Positions 46,092 to 59,230 of a DNA stretch of 64,000 bases are shown here, piece after piece. The notes under the pieces were generated by a model. The model did not search any database, was not told the DNA's origin, and saw nothing but the letters and a program-made list of their open reading frames with translations. The first letter of the stretch is position 1, and every line of letters starts with the position of its first letter. The DNA is from Paludibaculum sp. (GTDB lineage: Bacteria > Acidobacteriota > Terriglobia > Bryobacterales > Bryobacteraceae): positions 62,001-126,000 of the forward strand of contig JARKQJ010000196.1 in assembly GCA_029973955.1 (NCBI GenBank), given 5' to 3'. A program made the position numbers and the translations under genes.

Positions 46092-49000
46092 TTAGGCCTT
46101 GTGCCCGCGCGAGGCGAGTTGGATGGCTGTGAGAAGCTGATCGGTCTCGAAAGGCTTGGGGATGTAACCGTCCATGCCGGCCTCGATGCAGATGTCCCTG
46201 TCGCCCTTCATGGCGTTGGCGGTGAGGGCGAGGATGGGGGTGCGGCGGCCGAGGGCCTGCTCCAGGTTGCGGATCTGGCGGGTGGCTTCGAGGCCGTCCA
46301 TGTCGGGCATCTGGACATCCATGAGGACGAGGTCGAACTGCTGGGTGGATGCCTTCTCGACGGCTTTGCGGCCGTCGGAGACGGTGGTGACCTGGTGACC
46401 GTGGCGGCTAATGACGAGTTCAACGAGGCGGCGATTGACTTCGTTGTCCTCGGCGAGGAGGATGCGGAGGCCGGAGGCGCCTGAAGCTGGGGAATCGGCC
46501 GGGTCGGACAGGCTGACTGCGTGGGGCGCATCGACAAAAGGGGCACGAACGGTGACGGAAAAAGTGCTGCCTTTGCCGGGTTCGCTGCGCACGCCAATGC
46601 CGCCGCCCATCAGCTGGGCGAGGCGGGAGGAGATGGCCAGACCGAGACCAGTGCCTCCGTAGCGGCGGGTGACGGAGCCGTCAGCCTGGCGGAAGGCCTC
46701 AAAGATGACGCGCTGCTGATCATCGGCGATCCCGATGCCGGAATCGGCGACCGAAATGTGGAGTTCGAAGTCGCCCGCCGGCATCGGGCGACCGGAGACG
46801 TGGATCTGGATGCCGCCCTTCTCGGTGAATTTGACGGCATTGCCGAGGAGGTTGAGGACGATCTGGCGGAGCCGCTGCTCGTCGCAGAAGATGCGTTCGG
46901 GAAGACCGTCGGCGAAGGTGGTTTGGATGGAGATGCCCTTTTCCGCGGCGCGAGAAGAGAGAGTCCTGACGGCCTGTTCGATGGGAGCGCGAAGGAGGAA
47001 GGGCTCGGGACGGATCTGCATGTGACCGGCCTCGATCTTGGAGAGGTCAAGGATATCGTTGAGGAGGCTGAGAAGGCTGTCGGCAGAGAGCTTGACGGTT
47101 TCGAGGTAGTCCCGCTGTTCGCTATCGAGGTCGGTGGTGAGGGCCAGTTGAGTCATGCCGAGGATGCCGTTCATGGGGGTACGGATCTCATGGCTGATAT
47201 TGGCGAGGAACTCGTCCTTCAGTCGATTGGCGCGTTCACTACGCTCCTTTTCAAGACGGAGCTGGCGGGTGCGGTCATCGACGGCCTTTTCGAGGCGGCG
47301 GGTTTCACTGGCGTGCCGGACCTTGGAGCGGTGCAGGTAGAGAATGACGCCCGCGGCGAGGAGGATGACGACGGAGAGGCGGAAAATAGGATGGGCCCAC
47401 CAGGGCGGGCTGATGCGAAATTCAAAGACGGCGGGCAGGCGGCTCCAATGGCGATACCCGTCATAGCCCTGAACTTCCAGGCGGTAGTCGCCGGGCGGCA
47501 GGTCTGGAAACTGGACCTCGGGCTGGACGGTTTCCTTCCATTCGTCGGAGAGGCCGACGACGCGATAGCGGTAGCGCTGGCCCTTGGGGCGGGCGAAGGC
47601 GAGAACGGAGAAGCGGACTTCGAGGGTGTTCTGGCGGTACGAGACTTTGGCGGGGCGCGCGGGATCGAAAGTAACGGAGCCGAGCTTGGCTTCGGTGATG
47701 ACAGTGACTGGGGCGCCGCGGTCGATCTTACCGGCCTTTTCCTGGAAGCGGGAGAGGCCGGCGCTGGTACCGATCCAGACTGTACCGTCGGGCTCGGCGG
47801 CGAAGGCGTCGGTATCGCAATCGTCCCAGATAGGCCCGTCGCCGCGGCGATACTGGGTCCAGTATCTGCCGTCGAAGATACCGATGCCGCGGTCTGTGCC
47901 GACCCAGAGCTTGCCGAGGGCGTCGTAGCGGGCGAAGTAGACCTGAAGGGACGGGTAACCTACCTCGACACCGACCCGTTCGAAGCGGAGGCGACCGCCG
48001 GACTCCAGGACGCGGGAAAGGCCGTGGGAGAACTGATAGACGAGCCAGATTTGGCCTTTGGGGCCGAATTCTACGGCGAGGACGGCGTTGTCGGCCAGGC
48101 CTTCCTGAGTGGTGTAGCGGCGCCAGCGGCCGTCGCGGAGGATGAAGAGGCCATCGAGCGTCCCGACCCAAAGGCTGCCATCGGGCGCCTCGCGGACGCA
48201 GCTGCCGTAGGGCTGGATTCGCTTGTCCAAGTGGATGGTCTCGAGAATTCCGCGGGGAGAGAGCTGAAAGAAACCGTCCTTGCGGGCGGAGGTGAGGAAG
48301 ACTCGTCCGTCGCGGGTGACCTGGACATCGGTAATGGGCTTGGATTCGGGGTCGGGGGTGGCGAAGGGGAACTTGCGAAGCTGGCCGGTGGCGGGATCCA
48401 GGCGAGCGACGCCAACTCCGCGCAGGGCGATCCAGAAGGCGCCGTCGGGGGCGCGATCCATTGCCTGGATCTCGGTGGTTCCCAGAGCAGGGTGGCGATG
48501 GAAGGTGTATCCGGCGCCGGAGCGTTGGCCGACATAGAGCCCGGCTCCCGTAGCCACCCAGACTCTTCCGCCAGGTTCGGGGAAGATCTGCCAGATGGTT
48601 TCACTGAGAAGGCCGGAGGATTCGACGTAGCCCTCCCATTCGCGGTAGCCCATCCACTGTGCGAGACCGCGGCCGTTCATGCCGAGCCAGATGGTGCCCT
48701 CATGACCGCGATAGGCGTTGGCGACGGAGGTGCCAGGCAGACCTTGCTGCTTGCCGACGAAATGCCACGTGGAGCCGTTCCAGATGCCTAGACCTTCGAG
48801 CATCGGCACGAGGACGCGGCCCTCGCCGTCGAGGTTGAGCTGGGGCGTCCAGGGACTCCGCAGGTCTTTGGGACAAGCCAGCGGCTCGAAAGAGGAGGCG
48901 CCGGCCTTGAGGACGTAGATATTGGAGAGCTGACGGGCATAGAGGTTACCCTTGTCGTCTTCGAGCAGGAATTGGTTGTAGCCAGCGCGGGGCTGGGCTC

Positions 49001-49631
49001 TGAAAGGGACCGGCTGATCGTTGGCGTCGAGGCGGCAGAGGCCGGTGCCGCAGGCAAAGACGACCTCACCGGCACGGGTGACGATGACGGCGGCGGAGGT
49101 GGTGACACGGTTCTCCTCCTCTTCGGCAAGGGGTGTTCGAGTCAGCCGGAAATGCCACTCAGAAGAGTTCGGCATCCGAGTGCCCAGGTAGAGGCCATTG
49201 ACAGTGGAGACGAAGAGGCGGCCGCGGGCATCGGAAGCGAGGCCGCCTGCGCCGTTGACGCGCGGCCGTTTGAGCCCAGGCAGTTCGACGGGTTCGAAAC
49301 GATTGCCTAAGCGGCGATAGAGGCCCTTGGAGGTGCCGAGCCAGAGGGTGCCGTCGGGGGTCTGGTGGAGGCAAGTGAGGAACGTGGCGGGAACGCCGTC
49401 CTTGGTGGAGAACTCGGTAAAACGTCGTCCGTCATAGCGGTAGAGGCCGTTCTGCGTGCCGACCCAGAGGAAGCCCTCGCGGTCCTGAAGGATGCTTTCG
49501 ACGGCCAGGTTCATCAAGCCGCTATAGAAGTCAAATGATTGAAACGAATAGGACTGAGCGGAGACAAGGGAAGCCACAAGGAGGGTAAAGGCAAGCGCCG
49601 CGAACCGAATCCTTGGCTTTCCCGACATCAA
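46092..49631 (-). CDS. Hybrid two-component sensor kinase with Reg_prop/Y_Y_Y sensor
   Basis: An 1179-residue membrane sensor. After a signal peptide (to about residue 25) come some 650 residues of Reg_prop beta-propeller repeats (for example [45 protein letters not shown]). A Y_Y_Y domain follows, then one TM helix ([17 protein letters not shown]). The HisKA domain has the phospho-acceptor His814 in [12 protein letters not shown], then HATPase_c with N-box [13 protein letters not shown] and DSGIGI, and a C-terminal receiver with phospho-Asp1105 ([10 protein letters not shown]). There is no DNA-binding domain, so an unlinked response regulator must act. In Bacteroidetes this sensor class detects polysaccharide fragments. 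Confidence 0.95.
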
Positions 49632-49787: not shown

Positions 49788-50504
49788 ATGAATCGCGAAT
49801 ATCATCAGTGGTACAGTCACAGGCTGGGCCGGGGGATGGAATTGCTGACATTCGGCCACGGTGGGAAGCCGGTGCTTGTCTTTCCCAGTTCGAAGGGGAA
49901 GTTCTACGAATACGAAGACCGGGGGATGGTGGAGGCGCTGAGGTGGGAGGCGGAGAACGGGCGGCTGATGTTGTTCTGCGTGGACAGCGTGGACGCGGAG
50001 AGCTGGTACAACCGGGGCACGCACCCGGCGGATCGGGTTCGGCGGCATATCGCGTACGAGAGTTACGTTCTGGAAGAAGTAGTGCCGCTGATGCGGAGCC
50101 GGACGGGGACGCACCGGATCGCGGTGACGGGGTGCAGTTTCGGTGGATATCACGCAACGAATTTTGCGCTGCGGCACCCGGACGCGGTGTCGCACTGCGT
50201 GTCGATGAGCGGGGCGTACGACATACGGCAGTTCCTGGACGGGTATTACGACGAAGACTGCTACTTCAATAATCCGGTGGATTACCTGCCGCAGCTGTCG
50301 GATACGTGGTACCTCGACCAGTACAGGCACGACATCGGATGGGTATTCGCGGCCGGCGAGCACGACATCTGTTTAGGCGAGAATCAGAGGATCGCCGGGA
50401 TCTTCCGGGAGAAGGGCCTACCACACTGGTTCGACTTTTGGGGTCTGGGCGCGGTCCACGACTGGCCCTTGTGGCAACTGATGGCGAAGAAGTATCTTGG
50501 CTGA
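49788..50504 (+). CDS. Alpha/beta-hydrolase esterase, first gene of the amidoligase operon
   Basis: A 238-residue putative esterase. The nucleophile elbow is TGCSFGGYH (Ser117), with DVSERxx-like loops absent and a late GAVHDWPLW supplying the histidine. Near-N-terminal EYHQWYSHRLGRGMELL and KFYEYEDRGMVEAL match a family of small esterases commonly found beside ATP-grasp genes. The ATG at 49788 has GGGAG six bases upstream; in-frame starts at 49764 (GTG) and 49770 (ATG) are possible. No signal peptide. It is 14 bases before the ATP-grasp gene. Possible roles are hydrolysing a precursor ester or releasing the product. Confidence 0.8.
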   Translation: MNREYHQWYSHRLGRGMELLTFGHGGKPVLVFPSSKGKFYEYEDRGMVEALRWEAENGRLMLFCVDSVDAESWYNRGTHPADRVRRHIAYESYVLEEVVPLMRSRTGTHRIAVTGCSFGGYHATNFALRHPDAVSHCVSMSGAYDIRQFLDGYYDEDCYFNNPVDYLPQLSDTWYLDQYRHDIGWVFAAGEHDICLGENQRIAGIFREKGLPHWFDFWGLGAVHDWPLWQLMAKKYLG

Positions 50505-50518
50505 ATCAGGAGGAGCGC

Positions 50519-51451
50519 ATGAAAAAGGTTGGGCTGCTCTACGGGATGGAGAATAGCTTCCCGGCGGCGCTGGTGGAGCGGATCAACTCGCGCAAGGTGG
50601 ACGGGGTGATGGCGGAGAGCCTGGTAACGGGCGCGTTCCGCATGGACCTGCCGAGCCCGTATGCGCTGATCATCGACAGGATTTCGCACGACATTCCGTT
50701 CTACCGGGCCTATCTGAAGAACGCGATCCTGCACGGGGCGCGGGTGATCAACAACCCGTTCTGGTGGAGCGCCGACGATAAGTTCTTCAACTACGCGCTG
50801 GGGGCGAAGCTGGGGGTGGCGACGCCAAAGACGGTGATGCTGCCGCATCGTTCCCATCCGCCGGGGACGACGGCGCAATCGATGCGGAACATGATGTATC
50901 CGCTGAATTGGGAGGAGGTCTACGACTACATCGGCTTCCCGGCGTTCATGAAGCCGCACCTGGGCGGCGGCTGGCGCCATGTGTATAAAGTGCATAATCC
51001 GGAAGAGCTGATTGCGGCGTACAACGAAACCGACGTTCTGGGGATGGTGCTGCAGGAGTCGATCGAATTCACGGAGTACTACCGCTGTTACGTGATCGGG
51101 CGGGAGAAGGTACACGTGATGGGGTACGATCCGCTGCAACCGCACGACAAACGGTACGTGCTGGACGCGCAGCCGGAGAAGTCACCGCTCTATGAGCGGA
51201 TTGTGGCGGACTGCCTGACGCTGTGCCGGGCGCTGGGCTACGACATGAACACAGTGGAGTTCGCGGTGCGGGATGGGGTTCCGTACGCCATCGACTATCT
51301 GAACCCGGCGCCGGATGCGGGCCGCTACTCGGTGGGCGAGGCGAACTTCGAGTGGATTCTGGATGCGATGGCGGATCTCGCCATCAAATACGTGCTGGAG
51401 CCGCCGCCGGCGAGCGAGTACATCTGGCAGGACTATCTGGCCGGACGCTGA
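50519..51451 (+). CDS. ATP-grasp ligase
   Basis: A 310-residue cytoplasmic enzyme of the ATP-grasp fold, which activates a carboxylate as acyl-phosphate and joins it to an amine. The N-terminal segment is KKVGLLYGMENSFPAALVERI. The ATP-binding Lys is in FPAFMKPHLGGGW, the adenine-binding loop is MVLQESIEFTEYY, and metal ligands are in NTVEFAVRDG and DYLNPAPDAG. An excellent RBS (AGGAGGAGCGC) precedes the ATG. It lies between the esterase and the GCS2-type ligase. The particular substrates are unknown; it is closer to RimK/D-Ala-D-Ala-like ligases than to carbamoyl-phosphate enzymes. Confidence 0.87.
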   Translation: MKKVGLLYGMENSFPAALVERINSRKVDGVMAESLVTGAFRMDLPSPYALIIDRISHDIPFYRAYLKNAILHGARVINNPFWWSADDKFFNYALGAKLGVATPKTVMLPHRSHPPGTTAQSMRNMMYPLNWEEVYDYIGFPAFMKPHLGGGWRHVYKVHNPEELIAAYNETDVLGMVLQESIEFTEYYRCYVIGREKVHVMGYDPLQPHDKRYVLDAQPEKSPLYERIVADCLTLCRALGYDMNTVEFAVRDGVPYAIDYLNPAPDAGRYSVGEANFEWILDAMADLAIKYVLEPPPASEYIWQDYLAGR

Positions 51452-51483
51452 CAGTCTGGAAGCAAGAGCACAGGAGGGACGCC

Positions 51484-52593
51484 ATGGACCGCCCGAGCTT
51501 TACGATCGGCATTGAAGAAGAGTACATGACGGTGGACCCGGCGACGCGGGAGCTGCGCAGCCACATCGACGCGGAGATGATCGAGAAGGGCAAGCTGCAA
51601 CTGCGGGAGCGCGTGAAACCGGAGATGCATCAGTGCGTGGTTGAGGTAGGAACGGAGATCTGCAAAAACATTGCGGAGGCGCGGGAGGAGATCACCAACA
51701 TCCGGCGGTCGATGGTAGGGCTGGCAAAGGCGAACGGGCTGCGGCTGGCGGCGGCGGCGACGCATCCGTTTTCAGACTGGCGGAAGCAGGGGATCTATCC
51801 GGACGAGCGCTACGCGACGCTGGTGGAGGACATGCAACTGGTGGCGCGGGCGAACCTGATCTTCGGGCTGCACGTGCACGTGGGGATCGAGGACCAGGAG
51901 ACGGCGATCCACATCATGAACGCGGCGCGGTACTTTCTGCCGCACATTCTGGCGCTATCGTCGAACTCGCCATTCTGGCTGGGCGACCAGACGGGGCTGA
52001 AGAGCTATCGCTGCAAGGTATTCGACAAGTTTCCGCGGACGAACATTCCGGATTACTTCCCGAGCTACGGGGAGTATGAGAGCTTCGTAAACCTACTGAT
52101 CAAGACGGGGTGCATCGACAACGCAAAGAAGATCTGGTGGGACTTGCGGCCGCACCCGCACTTTTCGACGATCGAGTTCCGCATCTGCGACCTGCCGATG
52201 CGCCTGGACGAGACCATCGCGCTGGCGGCGCTGATCCAGGCGACGGTGGTGATGCTGTGGAAGCTGCACTCGGCGAACCAGGGATTCCGGCTATACCGGC
52301 GGCTGCTGATCATGGAGAACAAGTGGCGCGCGGTACGGTACGGGATCGACGGCAAGCTGATCGATTTCGGCAAGAGGGTAGAAGTGCCGTTCCGGGATCT
52401 GATGGAAGAGTATTTCCAGATGGTGCTGCCGGTATCGGAAGAGTTGGGATCGCGATCGGAGATCGAGTATTTGAGGAAGATCCTGGAGGAGGGAACCGGG
52501 GCGGACCGGCAGTTGCGGGTGTACCGAGAGACGGGAGATTTGAAGGCGGTGGTGGACTACATCATTTCGGAAACGGAGGCAGGCGTCGCTTGA
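51484..52593 (+). CDS. GCS2-type carboxylate-amine ligase (YbdK-like)
   Basis: A 369-residue member of the glutamate-cysteine ligase 2 family. The ATP/metal-binding strand reads FTIGIEEEYMTVDPATREL, followed by the HVHVGIEDQETAIH loop and IEFRICDLPMRLDE. YbdK has weak gamma-glutamyl ligase activity, but most family members act on unknown substrates. It follows the ATP-grasp gene by 32 bases and overlaps the next gene by four (TTGA). Confidence 0.92.
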   Translation: MDRPSFTIGIEEEYMTVDPATRELRSHIDAEMIEKGKLQLRERVKPEMHQCVVEVGTEICKNIAEAREEITNIRRSMVGLAKANGLRLAAAATHPFSDWRKQGIYPDERYATLVEDMQLVARANLIFGLHVHVGIEDQETAIHIMNAARYFLPHILALSSNSPFWLGDQTGLKSYRCKVFDKFPRTNIPDYFPSYGEYESFVNLLIKTGCIDNAKKIWWDLRPHPHFSTIEFRICDLPMRLDETIALAALIQATVVMLWKLHSANQGFRLYRRLLIMENKWRAVRYGIDGKLIDFGKRVEVPFRDLMEEYFQMVLPVSEELGSRSEIEYLRKILEEGTGADRQLRVYRETGDLKAVVDYIISETEAGVA

Positions 52594-53591
52594 GCGGATT
52601 TGACCGTGAGTTGTCGCAAGGAGCGCGGAACGCGGTGCGGGCCTGCCTGCGGGTACAGGCAGGCGAGAAGACTACGGTGATTACGGACCTGGTTTCGCGA
52701 GAGATCGCGGCGGCGCTGGAATTGGAACTGGCGGCGGTGGGCGCGCCGTACCGGACATTTGTGTTGGAGGAGTTAGCGGAGCGGCCGTTGATGGAGATGC
52801 CGGCGGCGGTGCTGGAAGATCTGGAGACGAGCCGGGTGTCGATCTTCGCGGTGGTGGCGCAGCAGAACGAACTGCGCAGCCGCATGCAGATGACCGACGT
52901 GGTGAACCGGCAACGGATCCGGCACGCGCACATGGTGAACATCGAGAAGCGGATCATGCTGGAGGGGATGCGGGCGGACTACCAGGCGGTAGACGAACTG
53001 AGCATCCGGCTGCTGGAGATCGTCAGGGGGGCCAAGACGGTGCGGGCGATGAATGCGGCGGGAACGGACGTCACGGCGGCGATGAATCCCGAGTACAGAT
53101 GGCTGAAGACGAGCGGCATCATCGATCCGAACACCTGGGGCAACCTGCCTGGCGGCGAGGTTTGGACGACACCGGGGGCAGTGAACGGGACGTTTGTGGT
53201 GGACGGCGTGGTGGGCGATTACCTGTGCGCGAAGTATGGCGATCTGCGAGAGACGCCGCTGACGCTGGTGATCGAGGGAAACCGGTTGAAGTCGGCTGAG
53301 TGCGCGAACAAGGAGCTGGAAGAGGAGTTCTGGAGATACACGCACACGGACGAGAACAGCGACCGGGTGGGTGAGTTCGCGATCGGAACGAACCTGGGTG
53401 TGCGGGACGTGATCGGGAACATTTTGCAGGACGAGAAGATCCCCGGCGTGCATATCGCGTTTGGGAATCCGTATGGCGACCACACGGGGGCGCAGTGGTA
53501 TTCGGCGACGCACATCGATGTGGTGGGGCGGCGGTTTTCGATCTGGGCCGATGAGCGGCAGTTGATGAGAGACGGCGAGTTTCTGATATGA
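52590..53591 (+). CDS. M29-like metallo-aminopeptidase
   Basis: A 333-residue protein resembling the thermophilic M29 aminopeptidase family. Motifs include TGAQWYSATHIDVVG near the end, GEFAIGTNLGVRD (family Glu) and the EGNRLKSAE segment. The exact metal ligands should be confirmed by alignment. The TTG start overlaps the GCS2 stop. A peptidase cotranscribed with amide ligases could trim the product or recycle it. No signal peptide, so cytoplasmic. Confidence 0.82.
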   Translation: MSGFDRELSQGARNAVRACLRVQAGEKTTVITDLVSREIAAALELELAAVGAPYRTFVLEELAERPLMEMPAAVLEDLETSRVSIFAVVAQQNELRSRMQMTDVVNRQRIRHAHMVNIEKRIMLEGMRADYQAVDELSIRLLEIVRGAKTVRAMNAAGTDVTAAMNPEYRWLKTSGIIDPNTWGNLPGGEVWTTPGAVNGTFVVDGVVGDYLCAKYGDLRETPLTLVIEGNRLKSAECANKELEEEFWRYTHTDENSDRVGEFAIGTNLGVRDVIGNILQDEKIPGVHIAFGNPYGDHTGAQWYSATHIDVVGRRFSIWADERQLMRDGEFLI

Positions 53592-54772
53592 CCGGCGACC
53601 AGTTGCGGCGGCTGTTCAACGCGGGCTACACAGCGGAGAGATACGAGCGGCTGCAGGCGCTGGTGGACGAGCGGTGCGGCGTACACGTCCCGTTCCGGCT
53701 GAGCGAGACACCGTGCTTTTTCGATGGCGAGTTCATGCGGAGGATCTCGCGGGATGGGCAGGCGTTGATCGAGCAGCTCGAAACGGACGAGTACTGGCGG
53801 GCATCGGAGATTTCGATTCCAGAGCGGTACCGCGCACCCGGCGAGTCGCGGCAGGCGATGTTCGTGCAGGTGGATTTTGGAGTAGTGCGGGGCGAGGACG
53901 GGTGGCTGCAGCCGAGACTGGTCGAAATCCAGGGTTTCCCTTCCCTATATGCGTTTCAGCCGGTGTTCGCGCAGAGCTACATTGACACCTACGAGATGCC
54001 GCGGGATCTGCACTATCTGCTGGATGGATTGGATCCGGCGGCGTACCAGGCGCTGCTCGGCGAGGCGATTACGGGAGGCCACGATCCGGCGGAGGTAGTA
54101 CTGCTGGAGATCGACCCGGAGAATCAGAAGACGCTGTGCGACTTCCGGGTGACGGAGCGGATGCTGGGCGTGCGGGCGGTGTGCATTACGAAAGTGAAGA
54201 AGCGCGGACGCCGGCTGTTCTACGAGCGCGACGGCGTGGAGACACCGATCCGGCGGATCTACAATCGCGCGATTGTGGATGAACTGGAGCGGCGCGGAGT
54301 GGAGCCGCCGTTCGACTGGAGGGAAGAGCTGGACGTAGAGTGGGCGGGACACCCGAACCACTATTTCCGCATCTCGAAGTTCTCGCTGCCGCATTTGCGT
54401 CACGCGTCGGTGCCGGAGACTCTGTTTCTGGATCAGGTGCGGGAGTTGCCGGAGGAACTGGGCGGGTGGGTGCTGAAGCCGCTGTATTCTTTCGCCGGGT
54501 TGGGGGTGGTGATCGGGCCGTCGAAGGAGGAGATCGATTCGATTCCGGCGGAACGGCGCGGGGAATACATTTTGCAGCGCAAGGTGGAGTTCGAGCCGGT
54601 GGTAGAGACTCCGCATGGACTGACCAAGGCCGAGATTCGAGTGATGTATGTAAACGGGCGGCCGGTGACGCACATCATCCGAATGGGTCGCGGGAAGATG
54701 ATGGGCGTGGATCACAACAAGAACCTGGAGTGGGTAGGCGCCTCCGCGGCGCTATACCATGAAGAATCATGA
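53588..54772 (+). CDS. ATP-grasp-like protein of unknown function
   Basis: A 394-residue protein. I do not recognise the family, but the C-terminal third looks ATP-grasp-like. It has a probable ATP lysine in GWVLKPLYSFAGLGVVIG, the acidic QRKVEFEPVVE, and AEIRVMYVNGRP. The N-terminal half contains QVDFGVVRGEDGWLQPRLVE and LVEIQGFPSLYAFQPV, reminiscent of glutathionylspermidine-synthase-type enzymes. Its start overlaps the M29 stop by four bases and its stop overlaps the next start by four. Confidence 0.65.
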   Translation: MTGDQLRRLFNAGYTAERYERLQALVDERCGVHVPFRLSETPCFFDGEFMRRISRDGQALIEQLETDEYWRASEISIPERYRAPGESRQAMFVQVDFGVVRGEDGWLQPRLVEIQGFPSLYAFQPVFAQSYIDTYEMPRDLHYLLDGLDPAAYQALLGEAITGGHDPAEVVLLEIDPENQKTLCDFRVTERMLGVRAVCITKVKKRGRRLFYERDGVETPIRRIYNRAIVDELERRGVEPPFDWREELDVEWAGHPNHYFRISKFSLPHLRHASVPETLFLDQVRELPEELGGWVLKPLYSFAGLGVVIGPSKEEIDSIPAERRGEYILQRKVEFEPVVETPHGLTKAEIRVMYVNGRPVTHIIRMGRGKMMGVDHNKNLEWVGASAALYHEES

Positions 54773-55113
54773 CACCTGATCCCGAAGATCTGTTGGACCA
54801 CGTGGTGGACTACCTCTGCGGCGAACAGGCCGAAGCGGTGGCCGATTTGAACGACGAAGAGATCCGGCGGCGCGCGGCGCTGGCGATTGAGCGGGCGCAG
54901 TCGCACGGCTTCACGCAGGCGGAGCCGATCACGGCGTTTGCGAACCTGATGTTCCTGGTGGCACCGGATTTCGACCAGCAGCCGGCGATCGCGCGAGCGC
55001 TGGCGGTGAAGGCGCCGGAGGCGCAGAGGATCGGGCTGTTGTTCGAGAAGACGAAGGAGGAAGACTGGGACGCGGCGGCAGAGAAGAGCGCGGGCTGGAG
55101 ATCCTCGGAGTGA
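54769..55113 (+). CDS. Conserved small acidic protein of the amidoligase operon
   Basis: A 114-residue, mostly helical, acidic protein. It begins PDPEDLLDHVVDYL and contains ITAFANLMFLVAPDFDQQP, a pattern I associate with small uncharacterised helical proteins but cannot name. Four-base overlaps at both ends place it firmly in the operon. It could be a carrier, regulator or even a peptide substrate for the ligases; none of these is shown by sequence. Confidence 0.6.
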   Translation: MTPDPEDLLDHVVDYLCGEQAEAVADLNDEEIRRRAALAIERAQSHGFTQAEPITAFANLMFLVAPDFDQQPAIARALAVKAPEAQRIGLLFEKTKEEDWDAAAEKSAGWRSSE

Positions 55114-55772
55114 AGCGGGTGGTGTTGGCGTGGTCGAGCGGCAAGGACAGCGCTTGGGCGCTGCACGTGCTGCGGCAGACAGCGCAGATTCAGGTGGTGG
55201 GCCTGCTGACGACGACGAACGAGGCGTTCGACCGGGTGGCGATGCACGCCGTGCGGCGGACGCTGCTGGAGCAGCAGGCGGAAGCGGCAGGGCTGCCTTT
55301 GAGGATTGTGCCGCTGCCTTGGCCTTGTGAGAACGGCGAATACGAGCGCCGGATGGCTTCGGCGTGCGCGGAGATGCGGGCCGACGGCGTGGAGGCGGTG
55401 GCGTTCGGGGATCTGTTCCTGGAAGACGTGCGGGCGTACCGGGTGAAGCAGATGGCGGGGAGCGGACTGGAGCCGATGTTCCCGTTGTGGGGGAGAAACA
55501 CGGCGGAACTGGCGCGGGAGATGATCTCCGCGGGACAGAGGGCGCGGGTGACTTGCGTGGATCCGAGGAAGCTCGACGCTGCGTTCGCGGGGCGGGATTT
55601 CGATGAGGATTTTCTGAGGGAGTTGCCGGCAGGGGTGGACGCGTGCGGGGAGAACGGCGAGTTCCACTCGTTCGTCTATGCCAGCCCCAGCTTCGCGCGG
55701 CCGCTACGGATCGCGGCCGGCGAAGTGGTGGAGCGGGACGGTTTCGTCTTTGCCGACGTGCTGCCGGCTTAG
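55110..55772 (+). CDS. Dph6-like ATP pyrophosphatase (adenine-nucleotide alpha-hydrolase family)
   Basis: A 220-residue PP-loop ATPase. The pyrophosphatase loop is LAWSSGKDSAWALHVL. The Dph6-like segments VAFGDLFLEDVRAYRV and PLWGRNTAELAREMI match diphthine-ammonia ligases. Bacteria have no diphthamide, so this protein probably amidates another carboxylate. The GTG start overlaps the 114-aa gene by four bases (GTGA), and its stop overlaps the convergent TonB-dependent receptor by three. It is the last gene of the operon. Confidence 0.85.
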   Translation: MKRVVLAWSSGKDSAWALHVLRQTAQIQVVGLLTTTNEAFDRVAMHAVRRTLLEQQAEAAGLPLRIVPLPWPCENGEYERRMASACAEMRADGVEAVAFGDLFLEDVRAYRVKQMAGSGLEPMFPLWGRNTAELAREMISAGQRARVTCVDPRKLDAAFAGRDFDEDFLRELPAGVDACGENGEFHSFVYASPSFARPLRIAAGEVVERDGFVFADVLPA

Positions 55773-58700
55773 AACAGGATGCGCAATCCGAGCTGGATGG
55801 CGCGGGAGCCAGTGCCGCCGACACCCTGATTGGCGATGAGGCCAGCGAGGGTTCCGGTGACCTTGCCGAAGTCGGCGCTGCCGACGGTGGTGTTGGGGTT
55901 GCCGAAGGCCGGGGTGTTGGTGAAGTTCGTGGCTTCGGCGCGGAGTTCGGCGCGGAAACGCTCCGTGATACGGAAGTTGCGGAAGAGCGACGCGTCGATA
56001 TTGAAGAGGCCGGGGCCACTCACGTTGTTGCGTCCCATATTGCCCCAGTGCGGGGTTTTGCCATCGGCATCAAGAGGTTGCTTGAAGGATGAAGTATCGA
56101 ACCAGGTGGCGGTGCCGATGGTGCCGGCGATGACGCCGGTGACAGTGAAGGGACCGATCTGGTCAGGGGTGAGTGAATTGCCGGGCGAGTTGGCGGCGAC
56201 GGATGTCCCGAACGTGATGGGGCGTCCGGTCATGAGAGTCAGGACGCCGTTGACTTGCCAGCCGCCGAGGATGTAGCTGGCAACGCCTTCCTTGAGCCAG
56301 GGTTTGCCCTTACCGAAGGGGAGTTGGTAGAGGTAGCTCTGGACGAAGGTGTGGGCGCGGTCGAAGTCGAGGCGGGAGTAGTTACGGCGGGGCTGGACGT
56401 AGTTCCAAAGGCCGCCGTCCTCGGGGGAGACCCCGAGCGCCTTGCTGTAGGTGTAGGCGGTAGTGAGCATGAAGCCGTTGGAGAAACGGCGGTCGGCTTT
56501 CACCTGGAGGCTGTTGTAGTTGTTGCTGTAGCCGGCGTAGCGCAGATTGACGTCGGCGTTCTTGCCGTAGGCGGCGTAGAGCGGACGGGAAGCAGCGCCG
56601 CCGTTGAGAGCGGTGGAGGCGTTCAGGTTGTAGGCCACTGGAGCGCGGACAGTGTGGTTGGCCACGTAGGCAGCTTCGACGGTGAAGTTCTTCGGGAGCT
56701 GGCGCTGGACGGCGATGTTCCAGGAGAGGATGTAGCCTTCGTGGTAATCGGACGGAACGATGGTGGAGATGTTCTGATTGAGCAAGGCCGGGGTGTTGGC
56801 GGGAATGAGCCCGCTGGAGGGGATATTGACGACGATGGGAGCCGGGAAGCCGGTACTCATGCTGCCGTAGACGCCCGGAGCGGTTTGAGCTTGCCCATAG
56901 GAACTGAGCGACGAGTAAGTGTTGCTCTGTTTCACGGGATAGAGGTCCCAGGGGAGCTTGTTGTCCGGGAAAGGAATGAAGCTCATGCCCGAACCGGCGC
57001 GGATGACGGTCTTGGGGTTGAGGCGGTAAGCCATGCCGATGCGCGGCGCGAAGTTGGAGTAGTAGGTCTTACGGCCCATGTTCATCGGCACGTCGCCGTA
57101 GCCGGCTACGCGGAATGTGTTGGTGATCCAGTTGAAATCCGACCAGGTGCCTTTGAGTCGCGGCACGCCAGGAGGATAGAAGTCGTAGCGGAGGCCGAGG
57201 TCCACGGTGAGCTTGGAGTTGACCTGCCACTTATCCTGCACATAGAGGAAGGTCTGCCAGAGGCGGTTGGTGGGGAACTGGACGGCGAGGTCGCGCTGGA
57301 AGAAGCCCGGCACGTCGAGGAGCATACTGGCCAAACCGTTGACCTGGGCGAGGACTGCGGCGCCCGGAGTGGAGGTCTGGTTGTTCTGGAACTGGAATTC
57401 GCCGCGGGGGCCTCCGGCATCCTGGGTTTGGAGGAGTTCTTCGCGGATGCGGCGGAAGTCGACGCCCCACTTGATGGTGTGGTTGTTCTGGAGCTTGGTG
57501 AAGTTGCCGACGTAATTGAAGTTGGTCTCGGCACGATTCCAGGGGAGAGAGCCTGAGTAGCCGACGAGGGGGTTGGCGTAGCCGCTGACGTTCATGGAAA
57601 CCAGGCCGCTGGTCCAGCGGTCGAGGTTGACGCCCTTGATGCCGACGGCTTCTGAGGCGTTGGTGCCGGCGTCGAGGTTTTCGGCCTTGTTGCTGTAGCG
57701 GTTGAGGCCGAAGCGGAGTTCCATGATGAAAGTGGAAGTGAAGAGGCGGGTGAAGTTGAGCGCCGCGCTTTGAGTGCGATTGACGCCGGTAGCGGCAAAG
57801 CCCTTACCGCCGCCGCCGGCGATGCCGAAGCGGCCGGGGTCGGTGACGACGGGGCGCTGGAAGCTGTAGCGGCCGCTCAAGCGGTTTTTGTCGGAGAAGG
57901 CGTGGTCGATCTTGGCGTCGAAAGAGTCGGTATCGCGTTTGCGGGTGGTGGCGCTGGCGAAGTTATTCGTGATGTTGGAGTTGATGTTGGGCAGCGGCAC
58001 CATGGCGAGGAGGCGCTTGGCGATGGGGCTGATGCGGTTGTCGGGGATGCGATTGCCGGCGAAGGGCAGGCGGCCGGCGCCGCTGTCGAGGTTGCCGGTG
58101 GCGGGATCGTAAATGACAGCCTTCGCGACTTGCGAGCTGAAGTCGCCGGCACGGAAGTCGGCGCCGGGTACGGTGATGACGTAGCCGTCGCCGCGGCGGT
58201 CCTGCACCTTGAGGTAATCGGCGAAATAGAAGGTGCGGTTCTTGATGATGTGTCCACCGAGGTTGCCGCCGTAGTAGTTGTAAGTGGTGACGGGCTTGGT
58301 GGGCTGGAAGGTCTCGCGGGCGTTCAGGGCGCTGTCGTTGTGGAACCAGTAGCCGCCGCCATGGAGGTCGTTAGTGCCGGACTTCAGGATGAGGTTGGTG
58401 ACGGCGCCGCCGGCCCGGCCGAGCTCGGCTTCGTAGTTGCTGGTGGAGACGTCGACGTTCTGGAGGGCTTCCACCGGGGGAATGAGGACGGTGAGGAGAC
58501 CGGTGCGGTGATTGTTGTCGACGCCTTCGAACTGGACGTTGTTGGCCATGCGCTGGGTGCCGTTGACCTGAGCGGTGAGCGAGCCCTGAGAGTTGAAGAA
58601 CTCGGAGTGGGGCTGGAAGGAACGGGTGGTGCCGGGGACTAGGTTGAGGAGCGACTGGGCGTTGCGGCCATAGCCCATGGGGAGGTTGGCAAGCTGAGCC

Positions 58701-59119
58701 TGCTCGATCTTCCGGCCGGTGTCGGAGCGGTCGGTCTGGAGGAGTGCAACCTCGGCGGTGACGGTCACGGATTCATTGACGGCGCCGGGCTGAAGAGTGA
58801 GATCGGCGCGAACAGTGGTGTTGACGAGAACGTCGATGCCTTCCTTGATTGCCGTGCGGAAGCCCTTCAGCTCCACGGTGATTTTGTAGGTGCCTGGCTC
58901 AACATTGGTAAAGACGTAGTTGCCGCTCTCATTGGAATTCATAGAGCGGCTGATGTTGGTTTGTGTCGCGGTCAGGGTAACTTTGGCGGCGGGGACAGTT
59001 GCGCCGGAAGCGTCGGTGACGGTACCGAGCAGGCTGCCACTGACGGCTTGGCCGTAGGCTAGACCTGCAACTACAATCAAGACGAGGATTGCAAGCGTAA
59101 TCCGAGAGAACACGGACAT
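55769..59119 (-). CDS. Oar-like TonB-dependent receptor with carboxypeptidase-regulatory domain
   Basis: A 1116-residue outer-membrane protein. Signal peptide ([22 protein letters not shown]), then a CarbopepD_reg-like beta-sandwich ([20 protein letters not shown], about 28-110). A plug region follows with [13 protein letters not shown] and [19 protein letters not shown], then a long beta-barrel ending in aromatic ILF, as expected for BAM recognition. This architecture is abundant in Acidobacteria, where ligands are mostly unknown. The ATG at 59119 follows CAGGAGAAAACT. It is convergent with the amidoligase operon and preceded by a good promoter-like sequence. Confidence 0.9.
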
Positions 59120-59153
59120 AGTTTTCTCCTGAAGCAGAGTCAATGCGTTGTAT

Positions 59154-59182
59154 ATCATTCCCCAAGACGACTGCCATGTCAA
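59154..59182 (-). promoter_or_regulatory. Sigma-70-type promoter for the TonB-dependent receptor
   Basis: On the minus strand TTGACA (59177-59182) and AATGAT (59154-59159) are separated by 17 bases, about 35 bases before the receptor ATG. The -35 is a perfect match and the -10 matches four of six. A second possible -10 (TATACA) is badly spaced. Confidence 0.5.
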
Positions 59183-59230
59183 TGGTATTTTTTTCGGCCT
59201 CTCCAAAGACTGATAGAATGACGGGGAAGC

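Follow-up and report, generated by a model that had tools for sequence, protein, structure and literature searches.

A conserved five-gene cluster of predicted amide ligases and hydrolases in Acidobacteriota and other bacteria: a candidate pathway for a small amide-linked metabolite

Introduction

Iyer and colleagues reportedly described, in Mol BioSyst in 2009, predicted amidoligase gene clusters in which ATP-grasp and other amide ligases are linked with hydrolases and for which amide metabolites were predicted. These clusters would resemble, in their linked amide ligases and hydrolases, the cluster analyzed here, which occupies positions 49788-55772 of a 64,000-nucleotide stretch of the Paludibaculum sp. 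genome (Acidobacteriota; assembly GCA_029973955.1, contig JARKQJ010000196.1, positions 62,001 to 126,000), hereafter the window. Its seven genes are labelled g1-g7 in order, and compared loci and genomes carry L and G numbers. We consider it probable, though by no means certain, that g1-g5 form a module for the biosynthesis of a small amide-linked metabolite, itself probably intracellular.

Glutathione biosynthesis by glutamate-cysteine ligase and the eukaryotic-type glutathione synthetase likewise combines a GCS2-superfamily ligase with a circularly permuted ATP-grasp enzyme of the same fold as that in the module. However, g5 has no sequence match to glutathione synthetase (E ≤ 10), and the module adds a third ligase, a peptidase and an esterase. 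In the fungal E-64 pathway, the ligase Cp1B, which is among the top structural matches of g5, makes an amide-linked small metabolite, but it works alongside an oxygenase and another amide synthetase, Cp1D, which is not an ATP-grasp enzyme (PMC12568646). A literature search, with most subscription papers outside its coverage, found no published description of the five-gene set or of a gamma-glutamyl protecting group.

Organization of the gene cluster

The sequence check confirmed what the sequence-only reading had reported: seven open reading frames (ORFs) on the plus strand, all present, with the last five linked by four-base overlaps.

g1, 49788-50504, + strand, 238 aa: esterase-type alpha/beta hydrolase, core (Pfam Esterase, 3e-10)
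g2, 50519-51451, + strand, 310 aa: RimK/LysX/Ddl-type ATP-grasp ligase, core (AlphaFold2 model and Foldseek)
g3, 51484-52593, + strand, 369 aa: predicted GCS2 carboxylate-amine ligase of the YbdK type (PRK13515), core (NF010039)
g4, 52590-53591, + strand, 333 aa: M29-type metallopeptidase, core position, filled by a GATase-like protein in some relatives (Pfam M29)
g5, 53588-54772, + strand, 394 aa: predicted circularly permuted ATP-grasp ligase, glutathione-synthetase/GspS fold, core (AlphaFold2 model and Foldseek)
g6, 54769-55113, + strand, 114 aa: no assigned family, lineage-level addition outside the core
g7, 55110-55772, + strand: DUF71-B12 type PP-loop protein, Dph6 homologue, lineage-level addition outside the core (Diphthami_syn_2, 2e-29)

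Four overlaps join g3 to g7, with the letters TTGA at g3/g4, ATGA at g4/g5 and at g5/g6, and GTGA at g6/g7. The start codon of g3 is ATG at 51484, and g4 starts with TTG at 52590, within the TTGA overlap.

Conservation of the five-gene core

A sample of 200 genomes of the class was searched with g5 as the query, and matches at E ≤ 0.001 were found in 46. Three fragments (27 aa in G080, 24 aa in G036 and a 29% piece in G106) were dropped, leaving 43 genomes with a substantial g5, which is incomplete or cut in G053, G116 and G161 and split into two pieces in G014. The presence of g3 was counted at 54% identity or more, which excludes 11 genomes with more distant GCS2 proteins. Among the 43 genomes, g2 was present in 41, g3 in 42 and g4 in 42, and the full g2-g5 set in 40. 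The incomplete cases are the fragmented assemblies G189 and G116 (about 710 and 800 contigs) and G002, which lacks M29. None of g2-g5 was found in 132 of the 200 genomes. The Fisher values for the co-occurrence of g2-g5 were below 1e-21 and, as the genomes are related, make the association look stronger than it is.

At ten class loci (L038, L047, L050, L052, L053, L054, L057, L058, L062 and L066) g5 stands alone, and in all ten genomes g2, g3 and g4 lie elsewhere. Thus, the genes travel together even when unlinked. A larger locus set contained 30 g5-only loci (L058 being left out as a duplicate); beyond the ten, g4 was searched for in the genome of L130, with no match.

After the removal of identical g5 ORFs and of L071, which holds a g5 remnant only, 126 loci were tallied, many of them cut by contig ends. 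Near g5, g3 was present in 85 loci, g4 in 81, g2 in 77, g1 in 59, g6 in 4 and g7 in 2. The commonest order was g1 g2 g3 g4 g5, found in 42 of the 126 loci, with 4 more continuing to g6 or g7. When the tally was restricted to the 100 loci whose upstream sequence reaches 6 kb or more, all of g1-g4 were found in 43, three of them in 18, two in 9, one in 5 and none in 25. The identity of the proteins among cluster relatives was roughly 40-75%, and a gene order conserved at this level is more than chance. The shared g1-g5 order supports the conserved cluster of amide ligases and hydrolases proposed earlier. Conservation of the whole seven-gene order, named as a check in the sequence-only reading, held for g1-g5 only, g6 and g7 being rare. 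The same reading had also named independent occurrence of the genes as telling against it; g6 and g7 do occur in this way, and g1-g2 partly so.

In the family genomes G080 (L071 9884-9964) and G036 (C3:19073-19144), only the last 24-27 residues of g5 are kept, and neither genome gave a match for g2, g3 or g4. These remnants look like the loss of the module as a unit. In L037 and L039 (the contig of the latter is also numbered L135), g2 and g3 lie about 6.5 kb apart with other DNA between them, while g3-g4-g5 remain tight. Apparent fusions of g5 in G250, G289, G265 and G308 were rejected, the long frames being judged by eye as out-of-frame translation of GC-rich upstream DNA.

Predicted functions of the core enzymes

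In addition to its Pfam assignment, which is over the cut-off, g1 weakly matches S-formylglutathione hydrolase (E 0.011). The serine of its G-x-S-x-G motif is nearly invariant, with Asp instead in one of 17 aligned rows (L140), and H224 is invariant in all 17.

Neither g2 nor g5 gave a Pfam match over the cut-off, and both were compared as AlphaFold2 models. The ATP-grasp folds that had been proposed for 50519-51451 and 53588-54772 were borne out by both models. For g2 (predicted local distance difference test score, pLDDT, 85.4), the best Foldseek matches were MdnC, Ddl, ArgX and LysX at E values of about 1e-12, with RimK also among the best. The fold search returned 542 PDB chains at E ≤ 0.001, the best 50 being Ddl, Van, MdnC/AMdnB, ArgX, LysX and RimK. 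By this model comparison, g2 belongs to the RimK/LysX/Ddl group of the ATP-grasp fold; it misses the curated RimK family cut-off (rimK_fam, 1.8e-7, 30.8 bits vs 143.4).

The model of g5 (pLDDT 89.7, predicted template modelling score 0.90) gave human and yeast glutathione synthetase, Cp1B and GspS-like proteins as top matches, the best at E 7.1e-14. All 33 PDB chains matched at E ≤ 0.001 are, by title, circularly permuted ATP-grasp proteins of the glutathione-synthetase/GspS type. They comprise glutathione and homoglutathione synthetases, glutathionylspermidine and trypanothione synthetases, YgiC/YjfC, nematode glutathione-synthetase-like proteins and fungal Cp1B. A profile search of PDB chains with g5 found no glutathione synthetase at E ≤ 10, and Cp1B at E 2.2. 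By its modelled fold, g5 is thus a predicted circularly permuted ATP-grasp of the glutathione-synthetase/GspS type that would stand outside the known sequence families of glutathione synthetase.

The assignment of g3 draws on the NCBIfam model NF010039, exceeded over the whole protein (554.5 bits vs 371), on Pfam GCS2 (PF04107, 227.6 vs 21) and on a profile alignment with YbdK (1r8g, E 3e-67) along most of the length. We predict that g3 is a YbdK-type GCS2 carboxylate-amine ligase. The protein g4 is over the Pfam M29 cut-off (48.7 bits vs 27), has no NCBIfam match and aligns with AmpS (1zjc) at E 1e-5. Its residues E190, E262, H288, H308 and D310, which we take to be candidate metal ligands, are invariant in 16 rows, and the first three align with E, E and H of AmpS.

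Exchangeable hydrolase and ligase positions

Several clusters without g4 encode, between g3 and g5, a protein resembling class I glutamine amidotransferases (GATases), with an intact Cys-His-Glu triad. PF00117 was over the cut-off in three of the four proteins tested, with no match for the fourth, and C152, H255 and E257 are invariant in 7 rows. Two groups of these proteins share 22-24% identity. Among the 85 loci with g3 and g5, 71 have M29 only, 8 have the GATase only, 6 have neither and none has both, and the hydrolase lies between g3 and g5 in all 71 and all 8 cases. G002, the only g5 genome of the class sample without M29, has the GATase-like protein in this position. On a quick g5 tree with 83 rows (two more were dropped for their short g5, and 32 of the 80 inner branches are open), at least three switches between M29 and GATase were counted. 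Four Ignavibacteriota/Bacteroidota genomes, two with the GATase and two with neither hydrolase, carry elsewhere an M29 relative of 27-30% identity, possibly a different protein.

Class I GATases act on gamma-glutamyl amides, the kind of bond that GCS2 enzymes make. The interchange is the strongest hint to the mechanism, as cleavage of an amide bond is common to both families. The trimming by a peptidase suggested in the sequence-only reading has thereby gained some support, since two unrelated amide hydrolases alternate in this position.

The second ligase is exchangeable as well, some class members having a different circularly permuted ATP-grasp in place of g5. Twenty class genomes contain g2 and g3 without g5, and 19 of them contain g4. 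Nine such loci (L172-L180) were analyzed; eight of them, clusters of type B, encode a circularly permuted ATP-grasp of about 450 aa, in all eight between g2 and g4, and the one member tested was over the Pfam cut-off. A g1-family esterase is encoded nearby on the other strand in 6 of the 9 loci. The ninth locus, L180, is cut by a contig end. The type B ligase was rejected as a g5 orthologue, the profile comparison giving E 6e-4 but a probability of only 28%. It appears to be a separate circularly permuted ATP-grasp that may be distantly related.

Distribution in bacteria

Named carriers of the module include Edaphobacter and Granulicella strains. In the phylum sample, a match was found in 50 of 396 genomes, in a few of them only a partial one. 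Outside Acidobacteriota, clusters were found in metagenome-assembled genomes (MAGs) of Ignavibacteriota, Bacteroidota and Verrucomicrobiota. A scan of a genome collection confirmed at least 573 relatives, and the best 80 of these, which were kept, include MAGs titled Ignavibacteria, Bacteroidetes, Calditrichaeota, Candidatus Didemnitutus and Chthonomonadaceae, names that may be wrong. A search for plasmid carriage, covering 72,556 plasmid records with a cut-off of E 1e-5, gave no g5 match.

The additional genes g6 and g7

Both g6 and g7 are lineage-level additions, passengers outside the core. Among the genomes of the family, g6 was found in 16 of 81 and g7 in 32 of 81. Besides the window, g6 lies behind g5 in L032, L072-L074, G555 and G560, and both genes follow g5 in L072, L074 and G555 (G555 carries g5-g6-g7, and G560 g5-g6). 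The two genes are adjacent in G000, G080, G089, G555, G563, L072 and L074. In G089 and G563 the pair has no g5 within 1.5 kb upstream; G089 and G173 contain g7 and gave no g5 match in the genome, and in G043, G075, G105 and G181 g7 and g5 are on separate contigs. In G080, about 1.2 kb separates the g5 remnant from the g6-g7 pair that follows it. In G560, the g6 homologue located behind g5 (L196 1510-1836) has, as reported, one internal TAG.

No Pfam match was found for g6. The protein g7 is over the Diphthami_syn_2 cut-off. It was rejected as a Dph6 diphthine-ammonia ligase: it misses the archaeal Dph6 cut-off (75.4 vs 197.3) and carries the motif ENGEFH, not the EGGE-type motif of Dph6. ENGEF/YH marks the DUF71-B12 subgroup (PMC3541065). 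Of 20 g7 loci, 13 have a downstream ORF family in common, of which the one member tested is Peripla_BP_2 (BtuF-like); in 6, an upstream ORF family recurs, the one member tested being a cobalamin adenosyltransferase (Cob_adeno_trans). The window differs from this subgroup in that its g7 has no B12-salvage neighbour and sits behind an unrelated operon. Based on the motif and on the B12-salvage neighbours in relatives, g7 is probably a cobamide-salvage gene caught behind that operon. Accordingly, the cluster holds three amide ligases instead of the four counted in the sequence-only reading, whose seven-gene pathway is not upheld.

Neighbouring genes

Neighbouring ORFs of at least 80 aa were clustered over 113 Acidobacteriota loci and 14 from elsewhere, and a family passed as cross-phylum if it was present in two or more loci of each of the two sets. 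The clustering reflected mainly lineage-level synteny. Based on Pfam searches of tested members, the families included PilZ, a LuxR-type regulator, an aldo/keto reductase, the major facilitator superfamily (MFS), a second esterase, a protein kinase and an amino-acid permease. A generic sensor kinase was the only family to pass the cross-phylum cut. Apart from it, no transporter, regulator or precursor family was found across phyla by this blunt test, in which even the two GATase groups stayed unjoined. A search for a sixth core gene thus gave lineage-level families and the sensor kinase only.

In part of Acidobacteriota, the aldo/keto reductase gene is upstream of g5 and runs in the same direction, in 10 of 13 loci with that family (L056, L061, L063, L065, L067, L104, L123, L126, L142 and L144; Pfam on L061). 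It is perhaps a lineage-level tailoring enzyme. An MFS transporter gene is near g5 in 14 of 127 loci, also in part of Acidobacteriota (Pfam on one member). A second esterase-family gene was found near the cluster in 23 of 127 loci, one of which is L151, a Verrucomicrobiota MAG (Pfam on one member). This gene is mostly on the opposite strand upstream of g1, as in L104 (2158-3243, - strand).

Two genes on the minus strand flank the cluster in the window:

46092-49631, - strand: hybrid sensor kinase with Reg_prop, Y_Y_Y, HisKA, HATPase and response-regulator domains; relatives lie near some clusters elsewhere
55769-59206, - strand: outer-membrane beta-barrel of the TonB-receptor kind (OMP_b-brl_4), which runs towards g7 and shares a few bases with its end

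Proposed pathway and alternative explanations

Because three kinds of amide ligase occur with an interchangeable hydrolase and an esterase, and the blunt neighbour test gave no cross-phylum transporter, regulator or precursor family except the kinase, a small intracellular metabolite is suggested as the product, likely an amide of the gamma-glutamyl type. We infer the order of steps, the substrates and the product as follows. First, g3 would activate a carboxylate group, most probably the one at the gamma position of glutamate, and join it to an amine. Then, g5 and g2 would attach two further units via acyl-phosphate intermediates. One amide bond, most simply the gamma-glutamyl bond, would be cut by g4, releasing or recycling the finished compound, and g1 would take off an ester or thioester.

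Several points weigh against this proposal. The cluster has no known substrate or product, and glutamate as the first unit would follow from the habit of the GCS2 family alone. M29 enzymes are broad aminopeptidases, and the dioxygenase 7cn3 shares the fold of g4. The best PDB match of the GATase profile, gamma-glutamyl peptidase 1, is non-significant (E 0.074), and 6 of the 85 loci with g3 and g5 have neither hydrolase. Five of the 200 class genomes keep g2 without g3, g4 and g5; in both g2-only genomes looked at, g1 adjoins g2 (L187 5193-6882 and L188 5079-6743), and the g1-g2 pair may serve a use of its own. Co-occurrence is weaker outside the class: nine genomes beyond the class sample were searched for g4, and three with g5 (L121, L125 and L130) gave no match. 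A diverged sixth core gene could have been missed, the clustering requiring close similarity. Finally, the five-gene set may already be among the clusters that Iyer and colleagues are said to have listed in 2009.

A more specific form of the biosynthetic proposal is put forward tentatively. Glutamate might serve as a removable handle, attached by the GCS2 enzyme via its gamma-carboxylate, built upon by the two ATP-grasp ligases and cut off by the M29 or GATase-type peptidase, unrelated enzymes that would have taken each other's place several times. The exchangeable second ligase would then give a family of related compounds, and the pathway would be widespread and unrecognised.

The presence of a GCS2 enzyme and a glutathione-synthetase fold within one module also brings to mind a glutathione-like low-molecular-weight thiol. 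Here the GCS2 enzyme would be a glutamate-cysteine ligase, g5 a glutathione-synthetase analogue, g4 a turnover enzyme and g1 a hydrolase of the S-acyl-glutathione type, with which its weak match to S-formylglutathione hydrolase agrees. This is a doubtful alternative: the third ligase is left without a role, and the bacillithiol enzyme BshC was found in 191 of the 200 class genomes vs 43 for g5, so that a thiol is probably already supplied.

Catabolic gamma-glutamylation, as in putrescine breakdown, would have an amine glutamylated, processed and then deglutamylated by g4. A ligase accompanied by an amide hydrolase of either of two kinds fits such a route, as do the non-significant gamma-glutamyl peptidase match of the GATase profile and, in part of Acidobacteriota, the aldo/keto reductase just before g5 and the MFS transporter near it. 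However, it would need fewer than three ligases, and no oxidase, dehydrogenase, aminotransferase or transporter passed the (blunt) cross-phylum cut, so we regard it as unlikely.

Modification of a protein or ribosomal peptide, by RimK-type tailing or graspetide-type crosslinks, is suggested by RimK and MdnC among the closest folds of g2. It seems quite improbable, as the folds of g3 and g5 are mostly those of small-molecule ligases and no precursor-peptide family was seen among the compared ORFs of at least 80 aa. A pathway of seven genes and four ligases, in which the Dph6-like protein would be one of the amide ligases, is largely refuted and very hard to credit: although the overlaps tying g6 and g7 to g5 in the window are real and the pair recurs behind g5 in three cases, both genes are rare among the 126 g5 loci, the pair also occurs away from g5 (G089, G563), g7 lies on another contig than g5 in four genomes, and elsewhere it stands beside B12 genes.

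Conclusions

The occurrence across several phyla of a three-ligase, five-gene module without a known product points to an unseen metabolite. From the exchanges seen for the hydrolase and for the second ligase, it can be told which steps of the pathway are fixed and which vary. Furthermore, the carriage of the module by Edaphobacter and Granulicella strains makes it directly testable.

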